The translations under genes and the position numbers were made by a program. From the IMG/VR virus record IMGVR_UViG_3300012931_000056, positions 1 to 32,355 of that record: DNA of 32,355 bases; one strand, given 5' to 3'. Below are positions 2,799-15,446 of the stretch, piece by piece. Within the stretch, counting starts at the first letter, position 1. Each line of letters begins with the position of its first letter. This DNA comes from a virus. The notes beneath the pieces were generated by a model that searched no databases, was not told the DNA's origin, and saw nothing but the letters and a program-made list of their open reading frames with translations.

Positions 2799-2836
2799 AA
2801 TTTTGTTATATATCATAAAATTTTGTGATGTATAGT
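2797..2836 (+). repeat. Two 20-bp tandem repeats with a nested hairpin
   Basis: Right after the SSB-like gene the 10-mer AAAATTTTGT occurs at 2797-2806 and again at 2817-2826. The units continue similarly (TATATATCAT versus GATGTATAGT). The segments 2807-2815 and 2826-2834 can also pair with one G-U wobble, giving a 9-bp AT-rich stem. The rest of the 232-bp gap (2799-3030) holds no convincing gene on the plus strand. It contains a short hairpin around 2919-2931 (ACGA/TCGT) and a repeated ATAAGACAA (near 2865 and 2912). An operator or a processing signal is possible, but nothing in the sequence decides it. Confidence 0.45.
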
Positions 2837-3030
2837 TAAGTTGCGTAAACGCGTTGTATAGCAATAAGACAATAAATATATAACTTAGGCAACAATAAAT
2901 AATATGAGGTCATAAGACAACGAGAGTATCGTCGCGGTGAAATAAAGACTGTATTGGATTGATATATATTATAAAGAGTATTGTATAAGTAAAGGTTATT
3001 CATTTTTAAATAATAAAATAGAGAAAAATT

Positions 3031-3257: not shown

Positions 3258-3443
3258 ATGAAACGTATATCAATTGAAGTTAAATTAGAAGAATTAGAAT
3301 TGTGCTATAGATTACTGGATTATATGGAGTATGACTGGAATGACTATAAAGAACTTGTGTTTGGATATAATTCTGGAAAACTATTGAGAAAGATTATTAA
3401 AAAAATTGATAAGACCATTAATAATGAAAAGTCTAGTAATTGA
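3258..3443 (+). CDS. Small hypothetical protein (61 aa)
   Basis: A 61-residue charged protein (begins MKRISIEVKLEELELC), with an N-terminal beta strand followed by helices and a basic C-terminus (KLLRKIIKKIDKTI). It sits 3 bp after the previous gene, which indicates translational coupling. Its TGA stop (3441-3443) is one base before the left arm of the long inverted repeat at 3445, so the RNA structure forms immediately after its end. No family recognised. Confidence 0.65.
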   Translation: MKRISIEVKLEELELCYRLLDYMEYDWNDYKELVFGYNSGKLLRKIIKKIDKTINNEKSSN

Positions 3444-3444
3444 G

Positions 3445-3583
3445 TTTATTTACAGATGTGCTTAATGATGACAGTGATTTTTAGCTAATTTCATGATTCA
3501 TGAAAATGCGCATTTTCTTTTATTTTTGGAGAAGAGTAGGTTCGATTCCTACCTAATAAAACTTAAGTGCATCTGTAAATAAA
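3445..3583 (+). ncRNA. Structured tRNA-like element inside a 21-bp inverted repeat
   Basis: The arms at 3445-3465 and 3563-3583 pair over 21 positions; as RNA there are 19 Watson-Crick pairs and two G-U wobbles. Inside lie, in order: a perfect 8-bp palindrome with a 1-nt centre (3489-3505); an overlapping perfect 16-nt palindrome (3502-3517); and a hairpin at 3536-3552 with stem GTAGG/CCTAC and loop TTCGATT, which is exactly a tRNA T-arm. No standard cloverleaf fits: there is no D-loop GG, no U33-containing anticodon loop and no CCA. The element fills the gap between two small genes. It may be a phage non-coding RNA, a degenerate tRNA, a processing signal or an attachment site derived from a tRNA 3' end. 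The structure is seen directly; the function is unknown. Confidence 0.6.
3536..3552 (+). other. tRNA T-arm-like hairpin
   Basis: GTAGG, then TTCGATT, then CCTAC: five perfect pairs and a 7-nt loop obeying the TTCRANN pattern of tRNA T-loops. It is followed by CTAATAA and A, where a tRNA acceptor strand and discriminator would stand. A 5' partner for that strand with one mismatch (TTTTTAG) exists at 3478-3484, giving an 83-nt class-II-like span, but the D-arm and anticodon arm do not fit. Phage attachment sites often contain exactly this part of a host tRNA, so this is also a candidate attP. Confidence 0.55.
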
Positions 3584-3601
3584 TTAATAATGAGGATAAT
3601 A

Positions 3602-4183
3602 ATGAAACATCTAGCGATTAAAGTAACAAATAAGTATGAAAGCGAAGCAGTGCAAAAAGCGTTGTTTGATATGGGGTTTAAGTGGACTTTTGGAGAAGGT
3701 TATTATATTAGAGAAATAATAATTTGCTCATTTAATAATATGTCAATAACTGATTTTATTAGTTATAGAAAAAATCTTACTGATGAAATTAATTATAGTG
3801 ATTTTGAGGTTGAAGTTTCCTTCTCCGACTTTTTCTCAACGTACGCCGGACACATTGAACGGTTTCCTGATTATGTTGAGTCTAAGAAACAAGAACCGAA
3901 GTTTAAAGCTGGTGATTATTTATATCAGGTAACTCATGATTCTAGTTTAGATAGATTTTTAATAAATAAATTTCCAATAATAGAAATATCAAAAGATGAT
4001 ATATATGAAGTTAGCGTGTTATCTGAACATATAGCCAATAGCGAACGATCAATACTCTATAATACGTATTTAGCAAAAGGACCAATAATATTGGTAAAAT
4101 ATATAGACATTGATAAACCTAATGGAAGAATATTTTCAACCCCTGAACTAGCAGCTAAACGCTTTTTGGAGCTTAATAAATGA
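3602..4183 (+). CDS. Hypothetical phage protein (193 aa)
   Basis: The start at ATG 3602 is preferred over the in-frame ATG at 3590, because the Shine-Dalgarno AGGA (3593-3596) lies between them at proper distance from 3602. The N-terminal 45 residues (KYESEAVQKALFDMGFKW) resemble a small alpha/beta module repeatedly found at the start of phage early proteins. The central part (about 96-165) is beta-rich and begins KFKAGDYLYQV, like a small barrel. The C-terminus ends in a helix (FSTPELAAKRFLELNK). No catalytic motif is seen and no function is assigned. It overlaps the next gene by 4 bp. Confidence 0.75.
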   Translation: MKHLAIKVTNKYESEAVQKALFDMGFKWTFGEGYYIREIIICSFNNMSITDFISYRKNLTDEINYSDFEVEVSFSDFFSTYAGHIERFPDYVESKKQEPKFKAGDYLYQVTHDSSLDRFLINKFPIIEISKDDIYEVSVLSEHIANSERSILYNTYLAKGPIILVKYIDIDKPNGRIFSTPELAAKRFLELNK

Positions 4184-6021: not shown

Positions 6022-6252
6022 ATGAAGCAAATAAAAACATTAACTGAACTTTGTGCAGAAAGAATAATATCTAATTTTACTTTATTTAAAAGTAATGTTG
6101 ATTTATTGCCACAAGAACTACAAAAAAAGTTACAAAATAAACTTAATAAAAAAGAATTCGATTCTAAATACGAAAGAATAAATGGTAAGATTTATGCAAG
6201 ATGTCATAGCCCTATTATAGTTAGTTCCGATTGGGGTAATTATAAACAATAA
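6022..6252 (+). CDS. Small protein ending the plus-strand operon (76 aa)
   Basis: A 76-residue protein. Residues 5-40 follow the pattern LTELC-x4-I-x2-N, then LPQELQKKL, which loosely resembles short helical boxes that precede leucine-rich repeats or act as adaptor-binding boxes in eukaryotic proteins. The second half (KYERINGKIYARC) looks like a short beta hairpin. The resemblance is weak and may be chance. It is the last gene before the bidirectional terminator at 6253. No function assigned. Confidence 0.6.
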   Translation: MKQIKTLTELCAERIISNFTLFKSNVDLLPQELQKKLQNKLNKKEFDSKYERINGKIYARCHSPIIVSSDWGNYKQ

Positions 6253-6273
6253 AAAGGCGCTTAATGCGCCTTT
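6253..6273. terminator. Bidirectional rho-independent terminator
   Basis: AAAGGCGC and GCGCCTTT form a perfect 8-bp stem around the 5-nt loop TTAAT. A run of A precedes it and T's end it, so it works on both strands. It sits exactly between the convergent gene ends at 6252 (plus) and 6276 (minus). Confidence 0.9.
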
Positions 6274-6275
6274 AA

Positions 6276-6842
6276 TTACTTATTAACTACGGTACAAGTA
6301 GCTATTACAATTGGTGCATCATGTTGTATAGCGTCAGAACATGTTTTACCATCTTTTGTCGCACTACAACGCTCAGTTCTAACCCAAAATGATGGCTCCC
6401 AATCTGCACATTTATCTTTTTTTGCACATAATTTAATTGGAGCATCTTTAGTTAAAAATCCACTAAAATCAGAAATACAATCATTTGTATAATCATTATT
6501 ACTAGTAGCATCTCTTACATCGGCTAACATAAATATGCCGCCATCTCCTTTATATTCAGTTAGTAATTCAAATTGAGCGCTAGAGGTAGTACAATTATTA
6601 TCATCATCTAGCGTAAATGGTATATTAAATGAATATTCAGCATAAGGAGGGATATTCACTGGATTTCCATCACAAGTTAGCCCTGATTTAAGTCTATATG
6701 GTTGCTCGCCATTACTATAAGCTGTGGCGCTAGCTGTATTCATATTAGCGGCAGCAAATATTGCTAAATAAGCAGTTAGACATTTACTGGCCATATTGAA
6801 AAGACTTGTTACGGTTTTAAAACTTAATAAATCTCTTATCAT
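6276..6842 (-). CDS. Secreted cysteine-rich protein, moron-like
   Basis: A 188-residue protein with an export signal. A long N-region is followed by the hydrophobic stretch LTAYLAIFAAANM (about 22-34) and a small-residue cleavage zone (NTASATA). A second possible start, M17, would give a standard-length signal peptide but lacks a ribosome-binding site. The mature part has eight cysteines, an even number compatible with four disulfides in an oxidising compartment, plus acidic patches and a beta-rich look. A consensus -10 lies at 6873-6878 and a terminator follows at 6253-6273, so it can be an independent unit, as expected for a moron. No homologue recognised. It could act in lysogenic conversion, superinfection exclusion or interaction with the host surface; none of these is shown. 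Confidence 0.75.
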   Translation of the reverse strand: MIRDLLSFKTVTSLFNMASKCLTAYLAIFAAANMNTASATAYSNGEQPYRLKSGLTCDGNPVNIPPYAEYSFNIPFTLDDDNNCTTSSAQFELLTEYKGDGGIFMLADVRDATSNNDYTNDCISDFSGFLTKDAPIKLCAKKDKCADWEPSFWVRTERCSATKDGKTCSDAIQHDAPIVIATCTVVNK

Positions 6843-9752: not shown

Positions 9753-10116
9753 TATCTTTTAATTCTATTAAAATAATTTCTAAAAATTTCTTGTAACTTC
9801 TGCATTCATAAACTTCGTGACCTAATCCGGTAAGTTTTACAATATTCAATTTCTGTTCTGGACTAAATCTTCCAGTTTTAGATTTATTTTCAATGTATAC
9901 TGTTCTTCCTTTAGGTAACGCAATAACAAAATCAAGAAACCCTTTTTTATTAATTCCTCTACTTCGATCATGGAAATAATAAAAACCATGGTCTTCACAA
10001 TATTTAATTATTTTTCTATCAAGCTCGCATTCTAATCCATCATCCGGTTTATTATCAGATACAAGTTTATTATTACGAGCTTGATATTCAAGCAATCTTT
10101 CTTTAGACCAGCGCAT
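9745..10116 (-). CDS. VRR-NUC domain nuclease
   Basis: A 123-residue single-domain protein. E29 lies in an N-terminal helix, HDRSRGINKKGFLD (49-62) leads to the metal-binding D62, and IENKSK (75-80) gives the E76-x-K78 pair, followed by SPEQ (85-88). This is the VRR-NUC subgroup of PD-(D/E)xK nucleases, some of which cut branched DNA. In phages such stand-alone domains may resolve recombination or packaging intermediates. It starts in an ATGA-type junction with the giant fibre gene, an odd place for a DNA-processing enzyme. Fold assignment is firm; substrate is unknown. Confidence 0.87.
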   Translation of the reverse strand: MRWSKERLLEYQARNNKLVSDNKPDDGLECELDRKIIKYCEDHGFYYFHDRSRGINKKGFLDFVIALPKGRTVYIENKSKTGRFSPEQKLNIVKLTGLGHEVYECRSYKKFLEIILIELKDNA

Positions 10117-13100
10117 TATGACATAGTCGGTGTTTCAATATGCCCCCAGGTTTGAGTACCACTTAATTCATATGATATCGTAATTGGTGAACTCGCAGTA
10201 CTATACCCAAATACGATTATACCCAATTTATAAGCGGCATCTCCTACACTGAGATGTGCTAATGAAAAATTTACCGTTATTGGTTTTGGTATAATGCTAG
10301 TAATGTTTCCGGTGCTTAATTGCGTTATTTTTTGATATTTTTTAATAGCAACAGATGTTTCATTTACATAACCAGTCGGGACTGTTATTGTTACTTCAGA
10401 TGAAGATGTATAACTACTAACTGGATAAAACCCTGAAGGTGTTTGAACCCAGGAGGTTGCGGAAAGATCGGAATTATAATCATTATTATTAAAAAATGAA
10501 ACCGAACCGCCCGACACGGTTAATGTTCTTGTTGTGCCTGTTCCTGTTGTAGTCGCTAACCAAGAGCCACCCTCTCTTACACGCATTACATTGAATAGTA
10601 ATGCAGAAGTAGCAGTACCACTAACTGAATTAACGCTTGCAAATACTTTCAACGCCCATATCCCCGCCGCTATATCTGTAACTCCTAACGCAGTATCGTA
10701 TAAAAATGCACATGAAAATATAGGTGCCGAACTATAAGATATAACATTTTTAGAAGCTGATGTGACACTAGTATTTGGTAACGTTGTTAATGTACATAAT
10801 TGATTATCATTTATAGAACCCACACCTAATATTTGCGTGTTATCAATGCAAAATTGTCTGCTGCCGGCAAAAGATAATGCTAAGGCAGTTCCTGCGCTAA
10901 TAGCATCATCGTTTGAAAATCTTATCATACCATTGGTGGTCATTTCTTTTGAAATATAACTATCATCGGCAGTATTAACTGTAACAAGACATCCTGCTCC
11001 ACCCGCTTGTACTACACCCATTATTTTACCAGCAGTAATATAAGTTTGAGTTCCAGCTCGAGCATTTATTACATATGTACTTATAGAACCGCTAGACATT
11101 TCCCCTGCATCTATTGATAAATAACCGCCACTTGTCCAGTTTTGGAATAACGCCTGCGTTCCCGTATTATTATAAGCACGGTTACATTTAACGCTAGCAT
11201 GACCCGTATGTTCAAAAATAAATCCACCATCACTCGCGCCAGTATCAAATTGCATTGTGTTAAATACAAAATTATGCACTTCTGCAACAACTGAATATCC
11301 TTGACAAATAATATTTGCCATAGGTGCATAAACATCTATATACCAGTAATAATTGAATGGTTGATAATATGTAGCTGTATCTAGTACTAACGCCATATTC
11401 GGAAGCCCATGTTCTTGCCAACGAATGTAATTAGCCGCAGAAATACTACATAAACAAGTATTAACAGTTAAACCGTCTCTTTTATTCCACGTTGAAGTAC
11501 CACCATCCCACGCTATTTGGCAAGAGCCTGTAAAGGTTTGTTTTGTATTTGTTTTTGTAGCATCATTATCTGTAACAGTTACACCATGCGCAATTGCATA
11601 ACAATCCCCATGAGTTGGAGTTGCTGGAAAATCAGCGGCGACCGCTATAAATCCTGTGCCTGTTCCCGTCATCCATGTTAACTCAGCTTTGTCAACGCCA
11701 AATTTATGTACGTACAAGAAATTTGCAGAAGTAGTCGCATCATAAGGATTATCATTTATAAATCTTACACTATTGGAACCATAAGTTTGATTTTTTATAA
11801 TATAATTTTTATCTTGAATATCTATTGATACTCGACCTGAACCAGTTGGCTGAATAGTGCCTGTAATGTGTTTAGCTGTGATATGCAGATCGCTAGTGCA
11901 AGTTATGATTGTATTACCATCACTTATGCCATACATATTATCAACAGTTAAATAAATCTTGGAAGTTATCCCATCCCAGCATTGCAACAAATACACGTTG
12001 TTTTCTGTGTAAAAATTAGTAAAATTAAAATGTACATCAGTTGCACCGGCTTCCGTAATTATACTGCCAGATACTACGTTTACATTTGCGGCATTCCATA
12101 TTAAGTCGGAATATACTACTACAATGTTACCGGTTAAAACAAAACTAGCTAAAGGCGCATCAATACTGGAATAAATATGTGGGTCTACACCACTTGCTGT
12201 AGCTATATAATAAGTGGAATTGTCTAATACTTTGATCGGAGGATATACTGTTGCAGATGACCCACTATGAACGTACGCTAAATATTGCGCTGCTCCATAA
12301 CTACATACAGCAGTTTGTGGAGTTAATCCATCGCGAGGCTCCCATTTTGATATTGTACTATTCCACGCTATTTGTAGAGGCCCTTTAAAATCTTGTCCTG
12401 TATTTGTTTTTCCAGAAATAGAGTCAGTAACAGCTACTCCATTAGCGATCATATAACAATCGCCATTCGAAGGTGTGCCTGAAGTTGGAAAATCGGTTGC
12501 AGAATAAATAAAACCTGTTGCAGCTCCGTAATAGCCAAGTGGATAATAAAGCTCCGCCTTATCTGTTCCAAACTTTTTAACAAAGTATGGAGGAAATAGT
12601 CCAACTTGTCCGAAAGTATCACTTAAATCTTTATAATCAGCACTAAAATTAACCTTTCCACCAAAAAGAGTCGAATTACTGCTATCAATATAATTTATTC
12701 CAGTTCTATCAATAGTATTAACATTAACAACGCCATTTGTGGCGGCTAAAATTCTACCAATCATTTTATTTACAGTTACATATATAGTGCCATACGCTGT
12801 TATAGATTGGAAAAGGTTTGAAGTTCCTATTATTTCTCCAGCGTTAATAATTAGTGTAGCTCCACTAGCATTATTTTGAAACATGCCATTTGTGATAGTT
12901 CCAGCATATGCCTTATTGACAAATATCGTAGATATACCTGTCTGACCAGATGCAATAGTTAATCCAGAGTCGCTAACTCCAGCTTGAAATTGAATATTAT
13001 TACAATTAAGAATGTAGCCTTTTAAATATGCAGTGCCATAAACAACTAAAGTAGCCGAAGGAGCCTGCAAATTAAGATTAAATTCGGATGCCTCCTCAAT

Positions 13101-15446
13101 GTAATAAGTTGAGTCATCCAACACATTTGCGGCATATGTATTATAATAACGCGCATATGCAATATATAAAGCAGCGCCGACAGTACATAAAGCAGTTTGT
13201 TGGCTATAGCCATCTCTTGACACCCACTTGCTTGTACTAGTATTCCAAGCAATTTGTAAAGGTCCGGTAAAAGTTTGTCCCGTATTTGTATGACCAGAGA
13301 CATTATCTGTTACAGTCCAACCACTTGCTACCATGTAGCAATCGCCATTCGAAGGTGTGGACGTAGGAAAATCGGTATTACTTAAGATAAAACCAGTGGT
13401 TGCGCCGCTTCTACCTTCAACATAATGCAATTCTGCAATGTCGGTTCCAAATCTTTCAACGAATAAAACTGGAGCAATACCATTAAATGGTAGCGAAAGA
13501 TCGCTAATTGTTGGAACATCCCACACGGGTGCTGAGCCAACTGTACCATTTCCAGTCATAGCTAAGAATTTCTTAGTCGTAGTTGTGTTTGCCCCAACCC
13601 TAGACAATAACGCAGAAGCATTACGGTAATACATATCATAGGCAGCATCAGAACCTACCGCCATAACTGTACCACTTCCAATGATATCAGAATTTACCGG
13701 AATATAACCAGTACCAGAAACAGCACTTGAAACTGAATTTTTACTATAAATAGTCACGGCAGTACCACAGGCTATTGGTGCAGCGGAAGCCGTAGCAACA
13801 AAATTATTTGCAACGATATTAATTCTAGTTGTTCCATTTGCTCCGTTGTTACAAGATATGCCACCACCTGTACCTAAATTAGTAATTAGGCAATTGACAA
13901 CAATACAGGTCCCCCCTGTGGTAGAGGTAATTAAATAATTAGAATTACTTGTATTCCAGTTGCAATCTTCTGCAATAATTATCCCAGAGCCGGTTACTCT
14001 ACTTGTAAGAGTACAAGCAAGTAATAATAGTTGACACGGAGAGTTAACGGTTATGACACTATTTAGTAACGAAATGCTCTTAAAATCCGCTAAATTACCA
14101 TTTAAAGCAATATTTCCATTTAATGAACCGCCTTGAAATAAAATTTTACCTGTAGTTCCAGTTGAGGAAAAAACAACATTCCCGATGGTATTTAAATCGT
14201 ATCGTGCATAATTGCCATTAGGAAACGAAATGCCATCAGTAAATGTAATGGTTGCGCCGTTACCATAAATGACTGTAGGAACGTCAAACATTGTAATCGC
14301 ATGAGATTCCGTAAATACTCCGGGGGCTATGTGAATTGCCAAGCCGTCCGCAGGTTCGTTCATTTGAACAGTTAAATTATATAAGGATTTATACGGCTTG
14401 CCTATAGAGCCGTCCTCTAAATAAATATCGACACGATTTCCATCGACCCACACTTCTTGTGTATACTGAAATGTAACATTGTTAATATTTGTAGTTCTAA
14501 TAACTTGATCCACTTCAGACGCATCATTAATAAAATTTAAAGTACAATTACTTAACGAATCAGCATCAGCATATAGGTAGCAATTTGTCCCGCTTAACGT
14601 AATCGTCCCTGTTACATTCGAACTAGTTAAATATACATTGCTAATTATAGAAGACGAAGTACCACTAATAACCATTCCTTTGACAGTTGAATTTTTTATA
14701 TTAGCAGTAGTTGTTGATACTGTAGCCGCAATTGCTAATCCATTTTCAAAAATACAATTATCTGTATTTAACGTTCCGGTATCAAAAGTCATTGACCCTG
14801 TATTCGCACAATGAACATCATATAAATTCAAGGTATCTAAACTATCACCATAGGCATAAGTTCTTCCTTTGAATTTACAATCTCCAACAGAATAATAATT
14901 TTTTAAATTTATTATCGCACCCACGGTGGATCCGCCTAGCGCATATAAATCAAAGTTAAACCCATGAGCTCCTATCGTTCTAATATTTTCTAAGCCTATC
15001 TCTGTGTTACTACTTGCGAATGAACTCGCTAAAGTTAAATATGTAGAGTTGTTTATTAGCGTACTTTCAAACATATCACCCTGCAAATACAGATATGGTA
15101 AAAGCACAGGAGATTCATTTAAGCCCACTGGCGCTAAGTGTGCTAAATATCTAGCAGAACTTGCAGGTACGATGCTATGTGTTGCCATATATGAAACAAC
15201 ACCAGCATATGTCTTAAACGGCTTAGCCATATTGCCTACTGTTCCAGTTGTGTCATTACCTAATGTATCATCTATCCATGATTTATTTGTTTCTAAAGAC
15301 TCTGATGCAACGCTTGTAGCTAAATTCTCCAAAGCGTCATCCAAAGTACTTCCTGTTACCGTGCTAGTATTGTTTACAGCACTTGAATCTATTAATTCGT
15401 AAGCACCATCTGGATAAAATTTGCCCGTTATTTTTATGCCGCTCAT
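10116..15446 (-). CDS. Giant modular beta-helix tail fibre or tailspike (1776 aa)
   Basis: The largest protein of the window. After an N-terminal attachment region (begins MSGIKITGKFYPDG) come two parallel-beta-helix modules of pectate-lyase type, each introduced by a GxxxKPFKT-like segment (about 70-80 and about 346-353). A linker typical of tail fibres follows (about 600-660). Three tandem modules of about 290 residues then begin at V663, V956 and V1246. Each starts with (K/R)FG-x-D-x-AEL and contains NGDCYM/THGDCYA, TFTGPLQIAW-like and RDG segments, followed by an LDxxTYY strand and a beta-helix. A C-terminal part (about 1510-1776) is Ser/Thr-rich. It likely binds or degrades a host surface glycan. 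No DGR or invertase accompanies it. Confidence 0.88.
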   Translation of the reverse strand: MSGIKITGKFYPDGAYELIDSSAVNNTSTVTGSTLDDALENLATSVASESLETNKSWIDDTLGNDTTGTVGNMAKPFKTYAGVVSYMATHSIVPASSARYLAHLAPVGLNESPVLLPYLYLQGDMFESTLINNSTYLTLASSFASSNTEIGLENIRTIGAHGFNFDLYALGGSTVGAIINLKNYYSVGDCKFKGRTYAYGDSLDTLNLYDVHCANTGSMTFDTGTLNTDNCIFENGLAIAATVSTTTANIKNSTVKGMVISGTSSSIISNVYLTSSNVTGTITLSGTNCYLYADADSLSNCTLNFINDASEVDQVIRTTNINNVTFQYTQEVWVDGNRVDIYLEDGSIGKPYKSLYNLTVQMNEPADGLAIHIAPGVFTESHAITMFDVPTVIYGNGATITFTDGISFPNGNYARYDLNTIGNVVFSSTGTTGKILFQGGSLNGNIALNGNLADFKSISLLNSVITVNSPCQLLLLACTLTSRVTGSGIIIAEDCNWNTSNSNYLITSTTGGTCIVVNCLITNLGTGGGISCNNGANGTTRINIVANNFVATASAAPIACGTAVTIYSKNSVSSAVSGTGYIPVNSDIIGSGTVMAVGSDAAYDMYYRNASALLSRVGANTTTTKKFLAMTGNGTVGSAPVWDVPTISDLSLPFNGIAPVLFVERFGTDIAELHYVEGRSGATTGFILSNTDFPTSTPSNGDCYMVASGWTVTDNVSGHTNTGQTFTGPLQIAWNTSTSKWVSRDGYSQQTALCTVGAALYIAYARYYNTYAANVLDDSTYYIEEASEFNLNLQAPSATLVVYGTAYLKGYILNCNNIQFQAGVSDSGLTIASGQTGISTIFVNKAYAGTITNGMFQNNASGATLIINAGEIIGTSNLFQSITAYGTIYVTVNKMIGRILAATNGVVNVNTIDRTGINYIDSSNSTLFGGKVNFSADYKDLSDTFGQVGLFPPYFVKKFGTDKAELYYPLGYYGAATGFIYSATDFPTSGTPSNGDCYMIANGVAVTDSISGKTNTGQDFKGPLQIAWNSTISKWEPRDGLTPQTAVCSYGAAQYLAYVHSGSSATVYPPIKVLDNSTYYIATASGVDPHIYSSIDAPLASFVLTGNIVVVYSDLIWNAANVNVVSGSIITEAGATDVHFNFTNFYTENNVYLLQCWDGITSKIYLTVDNMYGISDGNTIITCTSDLHITAKHITGTIQPTGSGRVSIDIQDKNYIIKNQTYGSNSVRFINDNPYDATTSANFLYVHKFGVDKAELTWMTGTGTGFIAVAADFPATPTHGDCYAIAHGVTVTDNDATKTNTKQTFTGSCQIAWDGGTSTWNKRDGLTVNTCLCSISAANYIRWQEHGLPNMALVLDTATYYQPFNYYWYIDVYAPMANIICQGYSVVAEVHNFVFNTMQFDTGASDGGFIFEHTGHASVKCNRAYNNTGTQALFQNWTSGGYLSIDAGEMSSGSISTYVINARAGTQTYITAGKIMGVVQAGGAGCLVTVNTADDSYISKEMTTNGMIRFSNDDAISAGTALALSFAGSRQFCIDNTQILGVGSINDNQLCTLTTLPNTSVTSASKNVISYSSAPIFSCAFLYDTALGVTDIAAGIWALKVFASVNSVSGTATSALLFNVMRVREGGSWLATTTGTGTTRTLTVSGGSVSFFNNNDYNSDLSATSWVQTPSGFYPVSSYTSSSEVTITVPTGYVNETSVAIKKYQKITQLSTGNITSIIPKPITVNFSLAHLSVGDAAYKLGIIVFGYSTASSPITISYELSGTQTWGHIETPTMS
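11711..13460 (-). repeat. Coding tandem repeat of about 870-880 bp in the fibre gene
   Basis: Module starts are at 13460, 12581 and 11711 (minus strand), giving units of 879 and 870 bp; the third unit runs on to about 10920, beyond the listed span of starts. Copies 1 and 2 are closest: a 21-nt block is identical at 12457-12477 and 13339-13359, and surrounding blocks are near-identical. Copy 3 has diverged. This fits stepwise duplication followed by divergence. Confidence 0.8.

Follow-up and report, generated by a model that had tools for sequence, protein, structure and literature searches.

Several described RNAs place a tRNA-like part inside a larger fold. According to a review (PMC8394870), YrlA spans 90-150 nt and combines a large terminal stem with a tRNA-like domain, which serves DusA and TruB as a substrate. 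In tmRNA, a T arm lies inside a larger RNA closed by long-range pairing, and processing stems cut by RNase III, as in phage and rRNA transcripts, place a long, unbroken helix between genes of the same operon. The locus compared here with these systems lies in IMG/VR record IMGVR_UViG_3300012931_000056, a virus record of 32,355 bases (31% G+C) that was analysed at full length, is referred to below as the window, and probably represents an incomplete genome, perhaps a fragment. PHROGs matches for tail sheath, baseplate hub, and tape measure identify a contractile-tailed phage, and its + strand early operon encodes RecT, RecE, SSB, and a DNA methyltransferase. The converging early and late operons meet at a bidirectional terminator-like hairpin (6253-6273). 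The element occupies a non-coding region between two early genes and has the following features.

3258-3443, + strand: upstream gene, 61 aa, no family; stop codon TGA (3441-3443) at the stem base
3443-3465, + strand: 5' arm of the outer stem, 23 uninterrupted RNA pairs; reaches 3441 with one mismatch
3489-3505, no strand assigned: palindrome 1, perfect, 17 nt, TTTCATGATTCATGAAA; weak RNA hairpin (-3.7 kcal/mol) or possible DNA-binding site
3502-3517, no strand assigned: palindrome 2, perfect, 16 nt, overlapping palindrome 1, GAAAATGCGCATTTTC; very weak RNA hairpin (-0.9 kcal/mol)
3513-3535, + strand: optional hairpin of 8 pairs with a 7-nt loop, adjoining the T arm; no better than chance
3536-3552, + strand: complete tRNA-type T arm, stem GTAGG/CCTAC, loop TTCGATT
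3563-3585, + strand: 3' arm of the outer stem; reaches 3587
3602-4183, + strand: downstream gene, 193 aa, true start at 3602; SD-like GAGGA just 3' of the stem

The outer stem had been described, in a sequence-only reading of this DNA, as a 21-bp inverted repeat at 3445-3465/3563-3583 with two G-U pairs. That repeat was found, and as RNA the stem in fact comprises 23 uninterrupted pairs (3443-3465/3563-3585), three of them G-U, which become 25 if one mismatch is allowed; it closes a 97-nt loop that carries the T arm. No longer stem of this kind is present anywhere in the window, and first-order Markov simulation of the window (60 copies, each searched on both strands) put the expectation for stems of 19 or more pairs at 0.1 and produced none that reached 20 pairs. 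The + strand fold of 3440-3588 reached -42.6 kcal/mol (z = -5.39), a value equalled by 0 of 200 shuffles, compared to -30.9 kcal/mol (z = -4.38) for the - strand, and the arm duplex gave -26.3 kcal/mol on the + strand versus -19.1 kcal/mol on the - strand. The - strand fold is weaker because the stem wobbles become A.C mismatches. When folded in a 280-nt context, the arms paired with a probability of approximately 1. This structure is far outside chance. All three non-Watson-Crick positions are G-U on the + strand and A.C on the - strand, and every difference between the arms is a + strand wobble. The earlier argument that two wobbles betray selection on RNA pairing had the right direction but little weight, as both would be + strand G-U by chance with a probability of ~ 0.1 (our own estimate under transition-biased drift). 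The T arm, the wobble pairs, and the direction of the operon all point to a + strand RNA.

The T arm, which had been read as exact, is indeed present at 3536-3552 and fully paired, with all of the loop invariants, the G53-C61 pair, and a stem of five pairs. Its core, GGTTCRANYCC, has a single occurrence in the window, where 0.02 was expected, and a fully paired T arm appeared in none of 60 simulated windows. From 3530 to 3555, 25 of 26 bases are those of a Cellulophaga phage tRNA-Phe over its variable loop, T arm, and first acceptor bases. The same T arm occurs in many other phage tRNAs and, therefore, the match cannot tell which tRNA is involved; at the level of sequence, the resemblance shows tRNA origin or mimicry, not a particular tRNA. 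The T-arm stretch likely stems from a real tRNA, and the variable-loop stretch preceding it is probably tRNA-derived as well. The remainder of a tRNA was not found. ARAGORN reported neither a tRNA nor a tmRNA at the element, the Rfam tRNA model scored 15.2 bits against a cut-off of 29 with the D and anticodon arms deleted in the alignment, and the element gave no acceptor stem, D arm, GG D-loop, or anticodon-arm signature, all in agreement with the earlier statement that no standard tRNA can be folded here. Rfam scans at gathering and relaxed thresholds returned, beyond this tRNA score, only snoRNA matches at chance level. The element, then, has a T arm with its invariant loop and lacks the cloverleaf formed by the acceptor, D, and anticodon arms.

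One explanation for such a partial tRNA is a phage tRNA gene, possibly of class II with Tyr/Leu/Ser-like spacing, that has decayed until only its 3' half is recognisable and was caught within an inverted repeat. TTTTTAG at 3478-3484 pairs at six of seven positions with CTAATAA 3' of the T arm, and their 51-nt spacing is a class II distance, which speaks for a decayed tRNA. The match of the variable-loop and T-arm stretch to phage tRNAs favours it too, as do the two tRNAs encoded by a phage with related tail genes. We nevertheless consider it quite unlikely: decay leaves the 23-pair stem unexplained, and the missing D-arm, D-loop, and anticodon-arm signatures and the low score of the tRNA model count against it. 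In comparison with phage tRNA genes, the T arm and the variable-loop bases before it are those of a tRNA, whereas the element is closed by a 23-pair helix with a 10-nt unpaired 3' linker in place of a 7-pair acceptor stem. The differences from tmRNA are similar, as the element contains no acceptor stem and no tag ORF and gave no Rfam match at the gathering threshold.

The interior of the element is far less structured than its outer stem. The stretch that separates the T arm from the 5' arm (3466-3535) does not fold better than shuffles (z = +0.13). Both of the overlapping palindromes noted previously are exact; as RNA hairpins they exclude one another because they overlap. An intrinsic terminator made of the hairpin at 3502-3517 and a U tract was rejected, its stability being merely -2.1 kcal/mol. 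The 'dense stack of symmetries' claimed for this region thus holds firmly for the stem and T arm; for the palindromes, which may be DNA-level features, it is doubtful at the level of RNA structure. The window holds six palindromes of this kind versus ~ 3.2 expected, and two of them within 20 nt of each other were seen in 0 of 100 simulations.

This close spacing argues for a DNA element, which might be an attachment site built on a tRNA-derived core, a small transposable repeat bounded by terminal inverted repeats, or operators formed by the two palindromes. T arms are common integration cores, which also favours such an element, as does a possible 4-bp flanking repeat, TAAT, at 3437-3440 and 3588-3591. 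Against it, no integrase (PF00589) is present in the 32-kb record, which is probably incomplete, and the sequence following the T arm is not credible as an acceptor strand; the attachment site offered by the sequence-only reading is, from the sequence, disfavoured. The arms and palindromes have no further copy in the window, and no element with the same arms at comparable spacing was found in the viral contigs, whereas a small transposable element would be expected in several copies with the same terminal repeats. The arms, moreover, differ solely by + strand wobbles. Taken with the homologue searches described below, these results make a DNA element improbable. The likeness of the arms to those of retrons also found no support, as reverse transcriptase (PF00078) is absent from the record.

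With RNase III processing stems the element shares a long, unbroken helix placed between genes of a single operon, although we know of no such stem that encloses an isolated T arm. RNase III substrates have an uninterrupted helix of about two turns, for which the 23 pairs present here suffice. The element could be an mRNA processing or stability element whose helix is a cleavage site for RNase III (or RNase P/Z) or a protector of the 5' end, such that the genes before and after it are expressed separately, the T arm is recruited or incidental, and no free RNA acts in trans. The upstream stop codon at the stem base, the downstream SD just 3' of the stem, the high stability of the helix, and the interior structure not exceeding chance all favour this explanation. 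It leaves the perfect T arm, a feature far outside what chance would give, unexplained, and we regard it as unlikely. The start of the downstream gene was placed at 3602 because the phrog_17589 match starts at residue 5 of the listed 197-aa ORF. The SD-like GAGGA (~ 3592-3596) lies outside the stem, and in the modelled fold its bases pair somewhat with downstream sequence, so that translational control is possible in the model. Promoter-like sites were at chance level.

The likeness to YrlA lies in a long terminal stem around a tRNA-like part with a T arm and in the length of the element, which is within the 90-150 nt range (PMC8394870). The order of parts differs: in the YrlA model (RF02553), the outer stem is followed by the T arm, an acceptor hairpin, and the D arm, whereas in the phage element the T arm comes last, on the 3' side, and both the acceptor hairpin and the D arm are missing. 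The RF02553 covariance model gave no match in the window at E <= 10. As a positive control, it matched clostridial loci at 43-51 bits, and the test can detect true Y RNAs because three of the four best clostridial matches adjoin a TROVE gene within ~ 0.3 kb. No TROVE (Ro) gene was found within the record, which is probably incomplete, and the motifs GNCGAA and UUGACC, which we take to be the Ro/Rsr-binding consensus, are absent from the element. A YrlA-type Y RNA was rejected on the basis of the missing model match, the order of parts, and the lack of a Ro motif and TROVE gene; by analogy, its function may partly resemble that of Y RNAs, though by these tests the element is not one. Separately, the clostridial YrlA-like RNAs in L028, L029, and L030 (~ 1501-1609), at 45-51 bits versus an Rfam cut-off of 69 and with TROVE within ~ 0.3 kb, are probably true Y RNAs missed by the Rfam threshold, and a further YrlA-like match of 43 bits (L031) is from a genome without a TROVE match.

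Among the options raised by the sequence-only reading, a phage non-coding or tRNA-like RNA fits best, given the strand-consistent stem, the exact T arm, and the early-operon orientation. Our best explanation, to which we give a little less than an even chance, is a tRNA-derived, stem-enclosed RNA within the early phage transcript that RNase III probably excises or cuts through and whose T arm host tRNA-handling proteins recognise. The stem, the T arm, the strand bias, and the location between two early genes are all directly observed; the function of the element is a guess. We counted in favour of this RNA the stem beyond chance, the fold (z = -5.4), the + strand G-U pairs, the T arm unique in the window, the 25 of 26 bases at 3530-3555 in common with a phage tRNA-Phe, the non-coding region, the downstream SD outside the stem, and a helix length adequate for RNase III. 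Counted against it were the single sequence with no homologue in the searches and no covariation, an interior that folds like shuffles, the missing acceptor, D, and anticodon arms, a promoter signal at chance, and the close perfect palindromes, which could indicate DNA instead.

As an RNA, the element is likely transcribed along with the early operon. RNase III could plausibly cleave the 23-pair helix, which would free a small RNA of ~ 100-140 nt and split the upstream from the downstream message. The T arm would be recognised by host tRNA-handling proteins, namely TruB and TrmA and possibly RNase P or a tRNA-targeting defence. It has the sequence that TruB and TrmA are known to need, and its modification by the two enzymes is plausible. 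The RNA would act as a tRNA-arm mimic or decoy, or would itself be stabilised; that it diverts a host tRNA factor or a defence nuclease as a decoy is speculative. Improbable in our estimate is a new phage regulatory or counter-defence RNA in which the long helix displays a lone T arm as a tRNA mimic that, early in infection, binds and occupies a host factor handling tRNA (TruB, TrmA, RNase P, or a tRNA-targeting defence nuclease). Such an RNA, if it is made, would be a phage-borne tRNA-arm mimic without a tRNA body, in a layout unlike that of tmRNA or Y RNA, and would offer an easy way to ask whether a T arm by itself suffices to engage host tRNA enzymes during infection. At present, it is one well-formed structure from an uncultured phage, with no relatives found.

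Searches of viral contigs, phages, plasmids, E. coli, and genome contigs yielded no homologue of the whole element or of the two flanking proteins tested. As a 151-nt query, the element was unmatched in plasmids and E. coli and in phages matched through its T arm only, which also counts against a DNA element, and scans of the viral-contig, phage, plasmid, and E. coli collections with the arm pattern and T-arm patterns gave no homologue. The 21-mer GGTTCGATTCCTACCTAATAA did not occur in the viral contigs. With the first 25 kb of the window as query, no DNA relative of the phage was found in the phage collection. Relatives of RecT, the methyltransferase, and the tail sheath (38-43% identity for the tail sheath in viral contigs) were found on contigs that lack a matching early module around the element, those of the tail-sheath relatives having the tail module in common with the window; a model of the element run on these contigs detected nothing homologous. 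No homologue was found in searches with the downstream 197-aa ORF or with the 74-aa protein, the other flanking protein tested. The arm pattern had four matches in 85,000 genomes, all of them unrelated to the element, three being an inverted repeat common to clostridial loci and one a chance match, and this too counts against a DNA element. An element-model match in L017 was not counted, as that locus had been fetched by the arm pattern itself. The clostridial inverted repeat (L015, ~ 6210-6380; L017, ~ 1671-1852; L018, ~ 6650-6815) has arms of ~ 20 bp or more, contains TACAGATGnnCTT, and encloses ~ 100 nt; in L018, it lies within a pilus operon of the tad type, where a TadE-like gene begins.

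Several minor observations were made around the element and elsewhere. A mini-ORF at 3424-3465, MKSLVIEFIYRCA, has its stop codon at the end of the 5' arm and a start like those of its neighbours (MKRISIEV, MKHLAIKV), and from its sequence is possibly the leftover of a gene cut by the element. A direct repeat (3398-3441/3576-3619), for which 4 of 300 shuffles were equally good, probably reflects the common gene-start wording MKxxxI. Antisense pairing to the phage was rejected, the one 10-nt match being a chance match. The second non-coding gap of the early operon (2799-3030, 230 nt) has a fold z of -1.77 and no Rfam match, and it contains an AT-rich hairpin of 12 pairs. Among the late genes, a 1776-aa protein is encoded on the - strand (10116-15446) and had 0 PHROGs matches at E <= 0.001. 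In Salmonella phage Akira (L037:1399-1526), a perfect T arm lies just 5' of a tRNA-Met and is accompanied by a Tyr-like anticodon loop (CTGTAAT) and, farther upstream, by a D-arm-like stretch; ARAGORN calls no tRNA there, and from its sequence the locus looks like an interrupted or decayed tRNA-Tyr.
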